In this document: one piece after another, positions 39,735-45,700 of the stretch
How positions within the stretch are numbered: position 1 is the stretch's first letter
How the letters are laid out: the number at the start of each line of letters is the position of its first letter
Assembly: GCA_947623455.1 (NCBI GenBank)
Contig: OX392530.1
Location: forward strand, 29,419,405-29,483,404
Source of the DNA: Mimachlamys varia
Lineage: Eukaryota; Mollusca; Bivalvia; Pectinida; Pectinidae
Length of the DNA stretch: 64,000 bases
Direction of reading: 5' to 3'
The notes under the pieces: generated by a model
Told to the model about the DNA's origin: nothing
Database searches by the model: none
Seen by the model: only the letters and a program-made list of their open reading frames with translations
Program-made: the position numbers and the translations under genes

Positions 39735-42700
39735 GTGAGTACCGTGGAAGTAAAAAAGTATCAGAATTATTTCCCGTAGCGTAAAGATGGTGTGTCATAT
39801 ATGTGATGTGATGTACCAAAAGTAGGTCACTGTACTCACCGATACTGTACATGTACACTTGGACCTTCTAGTTTTATGTACAAGAAAAAGATTGACTGGT
39901 CCTAATGCTTGCACTACTAGTCTCTGAAACTCCATTCTTGTGTTATAAGTTAACCTTGGTGTGGCGGTCACATTTAGATATTTACCATTGCATAGCATTG
40001 TCTCTATATATTAAACTCTGTCAATTCAGTTGGCATTCATACAAGAAACTGTAGGTTCATGAATGTGATTGACTGTGCTTCATTGAATTTGTCTTTGTCC
40101 AATCGATAATCATATTGTCTATGAATGCCAACTGAAAGCAGTTCATGCTAAAATGTACATTGGAAGAAAGTGAAGCAGATTTAAAGATTTTCTGTGGCAT
40201 TATAATTACTTTGCGTACGTACAGAAGAGAAAGGAAAATGGTAAATGTGTGTTATTCATTAATTGAAACTGCTATTTTCCCACATTTCACAGGTTCATTC
40301 ACATTTTTGTTAGGGAAAAGATAAACCTATAGGGAAAAGACAGTTCACACATGCTTCATGTAATTGTGAAATTGGTCACATTACTCTGGTTACACTGCAC
40401 TTTAGATGACATCATGATCATTTTGACGTCATCTAAAGTGCAGTGTAACCAGAGTAATGTGACCAATTTCGTCACGCATTGCATCCACCACTCTTTTGCT
40501 TATTTTACGTAGGAAAGTGTGGGAGAAAAAATAATCAGTCACCCCCTGCATGATGTACACAGTGAAATCTCAACTCTCCCGATAAGATTTATGGATTTTA
40601 GAAGTCGGCAAAGTCTCGTGCTAAAACTCATCAATCTTACCCTCGGGTTGTGATTTCTCAGTTTACATCACACAGGGGTGATAGATTCTATTATTCTTTT
40701 CTACAATTCAGGCAGTGTCTCTCTTAGGACCAGCCTTCATTTTATTACATTTGATAATGTTTAGCCTAAAACAAAACATATACAGAAAAAGTTTTATGGT
40801 GTGATCTGATGTATACGTAGTCCCTGTTGTGTTTTAGGATTTATGATATGATCTTAGTATACGTAGTTCCTGTTGTGTTTTAGGATTTACGATATGATCA
40901 GATGTATACGTAGTTCCTGTTGTGTTTTAGGATTTACGATATGATCAAATGTATACGTAGTTCCTGTTGTGTTTTAGGATTTACGATATGATCTTAGTAA
41001 ACGTAGTTCCTGTTGTGTTTTAGGATTTACGATATGATCTTAGTAAACGTAGTTCCTGTTGTGTTTTAGGATTTACGATATGATCTAAGTATACGTAGTT
41101 CCTGTTGTGTTTTAGGATTTACGATATGATCAGATGTATACATAGTTCTTGTTGTGTTTTAGGATTTACGATATGATCTTAGTATACGTAGTTCCTGTTG
41201 TGTTTTAGGATTTACGATATAATCTGATGTATACGTAGTTCCTGTTGTGTTTTAGGATTTACGATATGATCTTAGTAAACGTTGTTCCTGTTGTGTTTTA
41301 GGATTTACGATATGATCAGATGTAAACGTAGTTTTTGTTGTGTTTTAGGATTTACGATATGATCAGATGTACATGTATACATCGTTCCTGTTGTGTTTTA
41401 GGATTTACGATATGATCTGATGTATACGTAGTTCCTGTTGTGTTTTAGGATTTACGATATGATCTTAGTATACGTTGTTCCTGTTGTGTTTTAGGATTTA
41501 CGATATGATCTGATGTATACGTAGTTCCTGTTGTGTTTTAGGATTTACGATATGATCTTAGTATACGTTGTTCCTGTTGTGTTTTAGGATTTACGATATG
41601 ATCTGATGTTTACCTAGTTCCTGCTGTGTTTTAGGATTTACGATATGATCAGATGTATACGTTGTTCCTGTTGTGTTTTAAGATTTACGATATGATCTTA
41701 GTTTACGTAGTTCCTGTTGTGTTTTAGGATTTACGATATGATCTTAGTATACGTAGTTCCTGTTGTGTTTTAGGATTTACGATATGATCTTAGTATACGT
41801 AGTTCCTGTTGTGTTTTAGGATTTACGATATGATCTGATGTATACGTAGTCCCTGTTGTGTTTTAGGATTTACGATATGATCTGATGTATACATATAGTC
41901 CCTGTTGTGTTTTATGATTTACGATATGATCTGATGAATATGTAGTTCCTGTTGTGTTTTAGGATTTAGAATATGATCTTAGTATACGTAGTTCCTGTTG
42001 TGTTTAATGATTTACGATATGATCAGATGTATACGTAGTTCCTGCTGTGTTTTAGGATTTACGATATGATCTTAGTATACGTAGTTCCTATTGTGTTTTA
42101 GGATTTAGAATATGATCTTAGTATACATAGTTCCTGCTGTGTTTTAGGATTTACGATATGATCTTAGTATACGTAGTTCCTGTTGTGTTTTAGGATTTAC
42201 GATATGATCAGATGTATACGTAGTTCCTGTTGTGTTTTAGGATTTACGATATGATCAGATGTATACGTAGTTCCTGTTGTGTTTTAGGATTTACAATATG
42301 ATCTGATGTATAAGTAGTTCCTGCTGTGTTTTAGGATTTACGATATGATCTTAGTATACGTAGTTCCTGTTGTGTTTTAGGATTTACGATATGATCTGAT
42401 GTATATGTAGTTCCTGCTGTGTTTAAGGATTTACGATATGATCAGATGTATACGTAGTTCCTGTTGTGTTTTAGGATTTAGAATATGATCTGATGTATAC
42501 ATAGTTCCTGCTGTGTTTTAGGATTTACGATATGATCTTAGTATGCGTAGTTCCTGTTGTGTTTTAGGATTTACGATATGATCTGATGTATACGTAGTCC
42601 CTGTTGTGTTTTAGGATTTAGAATATGATCTTAGTATACGTAGTTCCTGTTGTGTTTAAGGATTTACGATATGATCTGATGTATACGTAGTCCCTGTTGT

Positions 42701-45700
42701 GTTTTAGGATTTAGAATATGATCTTAGTATACGTAGTTCCTGTTGTGTTTAAGGATGTACGATATGATCAGATGTATACGTAGTCCCTGTTGTGTTTAAG
42801 GATTTACGATATGATCTGATGTATACGTAGTCCCTGTTGTGTTTTAGGATTTAGAATATGATCTTAGTATACGTAGTTCCTGTTGTGTTTTAGGATTTAC
42901 GATATGATCTTAGTATACGTAGTTCCTGTTGTGTTTTAGGATTTACGATATGATCTTAGTATACGTAGTTCCTGCTGTGTTTTAGGATTTACGATATGAT
43001 CTTAGTATACGTAGTTCCTGTTGTGTTTTAGGATTTACGATATGATCTTAGTATACGTAGTTCCTGTTGTGTTTTAGGATTTACGATATGATCTTAGTAT
43101 ACGTAGTTCCTGCTGTGTTTTAGGATTTACGATATGATCTTAGTATACGTAGTTCCTGTTGTGTTTTAGGATTTAGAATATGATCTTAGTATACGTAGTT
43201 CCTATTGTGTTTTAGGATTTACGATATAATCTGATGTATACGTAGTCCCTGTTGTATTTTAGGATTTACGATATGATCAGATGTATACATAGTTCCTGTT
43301 GTATTTTAGGATTTACGATATGATCTGATGAATACGTAGTTCCTGTTGTATTTTAGGATTTACGATATGATCTGATGAATACGAAGTTCCTGTTATGTTT
43401 TAGGATTTACGATATGATCAGATGAATACGTAGTTCCTGTTGTGTTTTATGATTTACAATATGATCTGATGTATACGTAGTCCCTGTTGTGTTTTATGAT
43501 TTACGATATGATCAGATGTATACGTAGTTCCTGTTGTGTTTTAGGATTTACGATATGATCTGATGTATACGTAGTTCCTGTTGTGTTTTAGGATTTACGA
43601 TATGATCTGATGTATACGTAGTCCCTGTTGTGTTTTATGATTTACGATATGATCTGATGTATACGTAGTCCCTGTTGTGTTTTAGGATTTACGATATGAT
43701 CTTAGTATACATTGTTCCTGTTGTGTTTTAGGATTTACGATATGATCTTAGTATACGTAGTTCCTGTTGTGTTTTAGGATTTACGATATGATCTGATGTA
43801 TACGTAGTCCCTGTTGTGTTTTAGGATTTACGATATGATCTTAGTATACGTTGTTCCTGTTGTGTTTTATGATTTACGATATGATCTGATGTATACGTTG
43901 TTCCTGTTGTGTTTTATGATTTACGATATGATCTTAGTATACGTTGTTCCTGTTGTGTTTTATGATTTACGATATGATCTTAGTATACGTTGTTCCTGTT
44001 GTGTTTTATGATTTACGATATGATCTGATGTATACGTAGTCCCTGTTGTGTTTTAGGATTTATGATATGATCTTAGTATACGTTGTTCCTGTTGTGTTTT
44101 AGGATTTACGATATGATCTTAGTATACGTAGTCCCTGTTGTGTTTTAGGATTTACGATATGATCTTAGTATACATAGTTCCTGTTGTGTTTTAGGATTTA
44201 CGATATGATCAGATGTATACGTAGTTCTTGTTGTGTTTTAGGATTTACGATATGATCTTAGTATACGTAGTTCTTGTTGTGTTTTAGGATTTACGATATG
44301 ATCAGATGTATACGTAGTTCCTGTTGTGTTTTAGGATTTACGATATGATCTTAGTATACGTAGTTCCTGTTGTGTTTTAGGATTTACGATATGATCTTAG
44401 TATACGTAGTTCTTGTTGTGTTTTAGGATTTACGATATGATCTTAGTATACGTAGTTCTTGTTGTGTTTTAGGATTTACGATATGATCTTAGTATACGTA
44501 GTTCCTGTTGTGTTTTAGGATTTACGATATGATCAGATGTATACGTAGTTCCTGTTGTATTTTAGGATGACTGGACATTGGTGTGCGCCCTGTCAGATGT
44601 TACAGAGACCAACAGAAAAAGGGTGAAAATAGATGACAGAGATATAATTATCATAAAGACAAATACAAATCTTTATGCCTTGGATAGTTTCTGCTACCGT
44701 AAGGATTTTCTTTATCTTTTTTTCTATCATTTTCACATGAACTGTTTATAAGTGTACAAGATTCTCTTTTAATACACAGACATGGAAAAATGTATTGTCA
44801 CAATTATTTAAAGTTTAAAATATATGAAGATTTCTGTTATATTAAAATGAAAATAATCATAACTAAGTTGGTAATAATTAATTATAACTTTGTATGAAAT
44901 AATTTATTTATTTTTATTGGAAAATCTGACTCTCCAATTTTCAACAATTAATCCTCCTCTAAAATTATGTACTGTTACACTACAGTTGACTTGCCTCATT
45001 GTCAGGTCAGGTCATCTCGGTAATTTCAATATATACAGTATATTCTGTTTAAGATGCTGGAGGACCTCTGTACATTGGGGATATAGAGGTATGTGATAAT
45101 ACATTAAGAACCATTGATTAAGCATACATTGTACATGATTTGAAATTCAATTGTCGAGGCAACATTATGCAAAGTTTGATGTTTGTCATATGTGTTAATT
45201 TGAATATACAGAAATTTGTAATTAAGTAATTTATAGTAGAGACTTGCTAGAGTATTTTACTTCACTGTACAGATTATTTCCCAGTATCTAAATGTCTCCT
45301 GATTTGTTGATATTTTTCTTGATCTTACCTGTTTTTTATGGTCTTGCCTATGTTTTCATGATCTTACCAATGTTTTCATGACCTTACCTGTGTCTTCTTG
45401 ATCTTACCTGTGTTTCATGATCTTACCTATGTTTTCATGATCTTTCCTATGTTTTCATGACCTTACCTGTGTCTTCGTGATCTTACCTGTTTTTTATGGT
45501 CTTGCCTATGTTTTCATGATCTTACCAATGTTTTCATGACTTTACCTGTGTCTTCGTGATCTTACCTGTGTTTCATGATCTTACCTATGTTTTCATGATC
45601 TTTCCTATGTTTTCATGACCTTACCTGTGTCTTCGTGATCTTACCTGTTTTTTATGGTCTTGCCTATGTTTTCATGATCTTACCAATGTTTTCATGACCT

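Follow-up and report, generated by a model that had tools for sequence, protein, structure and literature searches.

The 64,000-nt stretch of the Mimachlamys varia genome analyzed here (the window) contains a five-exon gene that, judged from its sequence, encodes an RFESD-type soluble Rieske protein. The predicted coding segments listed in Table 1 join into a single frame of 447 nt, corresponding to 148 residues plus a stop, and GT-AG boundaries are present at all four introns. The encoded protein matched Pfam Rieske_4 PF22543 (E = 1.8e-39, 135.1 bits) and PDB 3d89, a solved Rieske domain protein (E = 1.6e-39), and its Pecten maximus ortholog showed 84% identity over 100% of the query with a matching N-terminus. 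Both Cys-His motifs are present in the Rieske_4 domain, and C48, H50, C71, and H74 were invariant in eight aligned sequences. These matches bear out the first-pass annotation of this DNA, which had proposed a Rieske-type gene; exon 1 and exon 3 (35 nt), which that reading did not name, were added here.

Across the junction between exons 1 and 2, MAEPL/DDWTL (slashes mark splice junctions) aligned with Pecten maximus MAESL/EDWTL with no extra residues, which places the second coding exon at the GAT starting at position 44566, directly after the last unit of a long tandem array in intron 1 (array 1). Exon 2 is predicted to use this last acceptor, joining 39734 to 44566. The earlier proposal that the last unit is the acceptor of the Rieske gene's second coding exon, with the remaining units as decoys, is thus backed as a prediction by the protein alignment and the joined frame.

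Table 1. Predicted exons of the Rieske gene and tandem arrays within and after it (positions in the window)
Feature	Position	Strand	Basis
Exon 1, predicted coding portion (MAEPL); donor gtgagt	39720–39734	+	Joined frame; aligns with Pecten maximus MAESLEDWTL
Array 1, units 1–80 (decoys), 70 of them with AG	40802–44518	+	Tandem Repeats Finder, junction cutting, core search
Array 1, unit 81, predicted true acceptor for exon 2 (TTTTAG/GATGAC)	44519–44565	+	Unit cutting, joined frame
Exon 2 (133 nt, rich in purines); donor gtaagg	44566–44698	+	Alignment, joined frame, hexamer count
Exon 3, 35 nt, completes CYHAGGPLYIGDIE	45054–45088	+	Alignment, joined frame
Array 2, 20-bp units that keep the register of the exon 4 acceptor but lack AG at the junction position (ttttcaTGAT)	45314 to 46272/46279	+	Tandem Repeats Finder, unit matching
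Exon 4, DFGGKTCIVCPWHKYKVAIDRGEMVYQ	46274–46354	+	Alignment, joined frame
Array 3, intronic (intron 4), 17-bp units, away from exon edges	46472–47405	+	Tandem Repeats Finder, unit comparison
Exon 5, coding part to stop TAG (48477–48479)	48297–48479	+	Alignment, joined frame
96-bp repeats 3' of the stop, similar to the final bases of the coding sequence	48521–48925	+	Tandem Repeats Finder, unit alignment
57-bp repeats, likewise resembling the end of the coding sequence	49032–49512	+	Tandem Repeats Finder, unit alignment

Structure and variation of the acceptor array in intron 1

Tandem Repeats Finder reported array 1 at 40802–44568, with a period of 46 (80.8 copies) or 93 (40.4 copies) and 92% matches. 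When cut at the splice junction, the array comprises 81 tandem units at 40802–44565, the last of which ends at G44565, directly 5' of exon 2. The first unit is partial, one is 49 bp and another 53 bp, and all others are 46 or 47 bp long; these lengths are explained by two unit types, each represented by 40 of the 80 aligned units (units 2–81). A 31-base core had 80 matches at up to three mismatches, every one of them within array 1, and no match in 100 dinucleotide shuffles. An exact search of a viral contig collection with a 33-base unit core returned no match. The first-pass description of about 80 tandem acceptor copies running into the exon agrees with this structure. It had also noted that the unit ends with the exon's first codon; the GAT is indeed present, but these 3 nt are the entire exonic share of a unit that otherwise includes the acceptor whole, and GAT would be expected by chance in 1 of 64 cases, which counts against the weight of the exonic part. 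Upstream of array 1, at 40368–40470, lies an inverted repeat with 47-nt arms that are 98% complementary and 9 nt apart, which looks like a small hairpin element.

We compared the decoys with the real site. AG is kept in 70 of the 80 decoys (it is lost in units 19, 24, 26, 57, 58, 61, and 66–69) and TTTTAGGAT in 66, so the first-pass statement that every unit carries the acceptor was too broad. In ungapped comparison over −22 to +3, unit 55 is identical to the real site at all 25 bases, and 32 of the 80 decoys differ from the real site by one base. Over −46 to +3, from which unit 1 was excluded (n = 79), seven decoys differ by one base (units 3, 31, 32, 36, 54, 59, and 76). The A at −7, previously taken as the one tract base that sets the real site apart, is shared with units 53–55, and the identity of unit 55 contradicts that distinction. 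No distinct branch point was found in unit 81: its sole yTnAy match, TTTAC, also occurs in both consensus unit types, and CTGAT, which is found in the 47-bp consensus, is absent from it. Because unit 55 is identical over −22 to +3 and seven decoys are one base off over −46 to +3, local sequence cannot separate the real site from the decoys, and unit 81 has no intrinsic feature that distinguishes it. Going by these letters, any splice-site model limited to some 20 intronic and 3 exonic bases would have to give unit 55 and the real site the same score.

Splicing to any of the 70 AG-bearing decoys would meet a stop codon within array 1 once 2 to 30 codons had been added; the commonest numbers are 19 (31 decoys) and 9 (28 decoys). 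These stops fall upstream of the later exon junctions. The early stop anticipated by the first-pass annotation is supported, with this range in place of its limit of about 20 codons. Recursive splicing and intron gain by AGGT duplication were also considered and were rejected, as all AG-bearing units read AG/GAT and AGGT occurs 0 times in array 1.

Variation among the units was then assessed for signs of selection. In 10 of the 80 aligned units another base stands in place of the G of AG, and this column ranks sixth in variability among 47; among the five columns that vary more, 17, 18, and 20 mark the unit types and 29 and 32 do not. Seven of the 10 losses are clustered in units 57–69, the 11 decoys nearest the exon (units 70–80) are all AG-intact, and loss shows no trend towards the exon. 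Given this clustering and the intact units 70–80, neither upkeep nor removal of decoys is seen. The units differ from one another at a mean of 3.86 positions over 47 columns, and neighboring units are slightly closer (3.54 at distance 1 and 3.38 at distance 2), the pattern that local exchange within a minisatellite would produce. Of the three roles offered by the first-pass annotation (tuning expression, forcing use of the last acceptor, or neutrality), unit variation leans towards a neutral array.

Other arrays and contents of the window

A second array, in intron 3, runs up to the acceptor of exon 4, with TGTTTTCATGATCTTACC as its unit and TGTTTTCAGGATTTTGG as the acceptor. At a match threshold of at least 11 of 18 letters, AG stands at the splice place in none of the 47 matches before the acceptor (the leftmost of which is poor), and the exonic part common to the unit and exon 4 is about 6 nt (GATyTT). 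The 959 bp of array 2 contain three AG dinucleotides, compared with 22.8 predicted from base composition. Selective AG loss was rejected as an explanation: array 3, which does not lie at an acceptor, is equally short of AG (3 versus 27.2), and the shortfall in array 2 is not evidence of selection because a repeated unit lacks what its founder lacked. Alignment puts the units of arrays 1 and 2 in the same register relative to the splice junction. Scores just as good were obtained with 13 and 15 of 500 letter shuffles, however, making a common origin suggestive only. No relation was found between array 3 and array 1 or 2, the score being reached by 181 to 211 of 500 shuffles. Units from three arrays (array 3 and those at 35529 and 58242) were set against eight exon edges of the gene; in each of the 24 comparisons, at least 17 of 300 shuffles reached the score.

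The 96-bp and 57-bp arrays after the stop scored 58 and 54, respectively, against the last coding bases, whereas the maxima from 500 letter shuffles each were 31 and 27. The 57-bp repeat sits within a 175-codon stop-to-stop frame.

To describe how arrays are distributed, we chose ten arrays from 32 Tandem Repeats Finder rows, excluding overlapping rows and the short arrays at 27761, 34619, 51612, 52155, 54887, and 57096. Five of the ten lie within 39720–49600 and cover 6550 of 9881 bp (66.3%), whereas coverage elsewhere in the window is 8.8%; a binomial probability for this clustering at the gene, computed after seeing the data, was 0.011. The 35-bp array at 35529–37639, with about 58 units, has by eye an internal duplication of roughly 900 bp, which could be real or an assembly duplication.

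The minus strand of the window carries three glycosyltransferase family 11 reading frames (7469–8557, 23177–24244, and 33247–34221). It also carries a phage-integrase-family reading frame at 12832–16996, adjoining a frame that is reverse-transcriptase-like by eye; the pair is suggestive of what we take to be a DIRS-type retroelement. An RVT_1 reverse transcriptase frame at 28418–31916, also on the minus strand and preceded by a frame that is endonuclease-like by eye, is by appearance a non-LTR retroelement.

Predicted choice of the last acceptor

We favor, with a probability of roughly 0.6, the reading that array 1 is an 81-unit neutral minisatellite of mirage-like origin that abuts exon 2, and that the last of its 71 AG-bearing units is used for its exon context. 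Only this last unit is predicted to be used, likely because no other is joined to a real exon. A duplication of the 3' end of intron 1 probably gave rise to the array, in the manner of the amphioxus "mirages" compared below, and unequal exchange or slippage would then have expanded it. Exon definition, through enhancers and the donor gtaagg that ends exon 2, would fix the choice of the last acceptor. An occasional splice to a decoy would reach a stop inside the array and lead to removal of the transcript by nonsense-mediated decay; otherwise the array would be tolerated, not maintained by selection. RNA self-pairing that covers the decoy AGs may make an added contribution, as a prediction of folding models.

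Two features of the sequence around the sites bear on exon context. Consensus-like donors are nearly absent from array 1 (0 GTAAG, 0 GTGAG, 1 GTATG, and 2 GTRNG; GTATAC occurs 68 times, without G at +5), which would leave a decoy little chance of forming an exon of its own. Purine-rich hexamers (five or six purines), a crude stand-in for splicing enhancers, account for 26.6% of exon 2, 13.1% of the rest of intron 1, 0.7% of array 1, and 0 in its last five units. Exon context would be the most economical cause of last-site use. As for the shares of exon sequence and position in this choice, position may count for more, because in the excerpts of PMC5389562 used here the distal of two duplicated sites was chosen even with 205 nt of exon behind the proximal one.

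The same work bears on the possibility that array 1 acts as a brake on splicing, in which units combining tract and AG would bind U2AF and early U2 complexes in parallel and slow the removal of intron 1, with array length setting output. In those excerpts, duplication of a strong 3' splice site led to binding of a second U2AF35, and RNAs carrying beta-globin sites in duplicate showed weak assembly and very inefficient splicing; because splicing was poor there, the decoys of array 1 may, by analogy, not be neutral. The 70 AG-bearing decoys would provide the material for such a brake, but conservation at the unit AG does not exceed that of other columns, and we consider this function unlikely. 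A regulated use of decoys in some tissues, producing stop-containing mRNA and less protein, is decidedly improbable: the position of all 70 stops, inside the array and upstream of later exon junctions, would suit it, but array 1 offers next to no donors for a cassette exon and next to no enhancer-like sequence, and the 10 AG losses follow no trend towards the exon. Finally, the copy number could have been inflated in assembly, and a supplement legend of PMC3087553 reports that the draft-genome version of one amphioxus mirage was aberrantly assembled. However, the differences between units, together with the lack of any exact internal repeat of 190 bp, indicate that array 1 is not one stretch stamped repeatedly, and an artefact of this kind is highly improbable.

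RNA folding is retained as a minor rival on the basis of structure prediction. Array RNA may pair with itself over the decoy AGs and leave the last unit more open, its right-hand neighbor being exon. An RNA made up of the last five units and 35 nt of exon was predicted to fold better than 200 of 200 dinucleotide shuffles (z = −3.70). Under three local-folding settings, the AG of the last unit was unpaired more often than in 65, 65, and 66 of the 70 decoys (0.415, 0.456, and 0.33, compared with decoy medians of 0.192, 0.043, and 0.024), and replacing the exon with four more units lowered its openness from 0.396 to 0.124. Nevertheless, four or five decoys per setting were more open, some of them near the exon (units 73, 74, 78, and 79), the whole tract was not more open in the last unit (rank 40, 46, and 57 of 81), and letter-shuffled exons did as well in 12 of 60 cases. 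We regard exposure at the array edge as improbable. A fuller form of the idea, in which self-folding would mask the internal acceptors and expose the exon-bordering unit while the number of units set the speed of intron removal and the level of Rieske protein, is very doubtful.

Compared with these alternatives, we prefer the minisatellite reading, and array 1 is probably neutral. It represents a natural competition test in which some 70 3' splice sites are almost the same and one decoy matches the true site over 25 bases; the intron 3 array without AG forms a built-in contrast. Clean use of the last site would mean that the decision falls to context outside the site, and this in a native gene.

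Comparison with known systems

Intron gain from tandem repeats has reportedly been described by Rogers and by Zhuo et al. in 2007, and duplicated 3' splice-site constructs are said to have been studied by Reed and Maniatis in 1986. For human internal tandem repeats, the portion of PMC2812944 drawn on here describes tandem repeats in genes as bringing splice sites into play; new introns are made in that case, whereas array 1 lies in an existing intron, with AG/GAT and no AGGT. In the constructs of PMC5389562, as excerpted, copies of one acceptor compete in cis and the distal one is used, as predicted for array 1, but they comprise two sites in a test RNA as against 81 genomic units. The minisatellite in intron 3 of an abalone TSSK1-like gene (PMC6905558) is, like array 1, molluscan and intronic, and has a 27-bp unit whose repeat number varies among individuals (a legend prints "62 times", perhaps a range with a lost sign). 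Unlike array 1, it has no splice-site link stated in the available text of that paper.

The amphioxus mirages, including Adh3, BflGb6, BflGb9, troponin C, and PGBD5, are like array 1 minisatellite-like repeats at an intron-exon boundary, according to the excerpts of PMC3087553 and PMC3902484. They are described in the former as tandem repeats spanning exon-intron boundaries with splice signals in many units, and its authors concluded that regular splicing was not seemingly disturbed. Array 1 likewise consists of minisatellite-sized tandem units (81, mostly 46 or 47 bp), and many but not all of these keep AG (70 of 80 decoys). As regards the boundary-spanning trait, its unit holds the whole acceptor plus GAT, and the unit of the intron 3 array shares about 6 exonic nt. 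The exonic share of merely 3 nt in array 1 and the bivalve rather than cephalochordate host are points of difference, as is copy number: 6 and 3 units are given for two haplotypes of the BflGb6 mirage and 3 for the 108-bp triplication in lancelet PGBD5. Length polymorphism and somatic instability are further traits of mirages; array 1 is represented here by a single haplotype.

The first-pass annotation knew of no described acceptor array of this size. The kind is known from the mirages, and the claim stands in part, for size in relation to the BflGb6 and PGBD5 figures in the excerpts; among openly licensed PMC papers on splice-site or intron repeats and decoy acceptors, no titles or abstract openings named an acceptor array this large. 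How common such arrays are is a question that array 1 raises, now that assemblies span them. From its sequence, array 1 looks like an outsized, acceptor-only form of the mirage pattern, a known pattern of which its membership is incomplete. Its copy number, nearly pure acceptor unit, and molluscan host exceed the BflGb6 and PGBD5 cases as excerpted, and it would extend mirages from amphioxus to molluscs.
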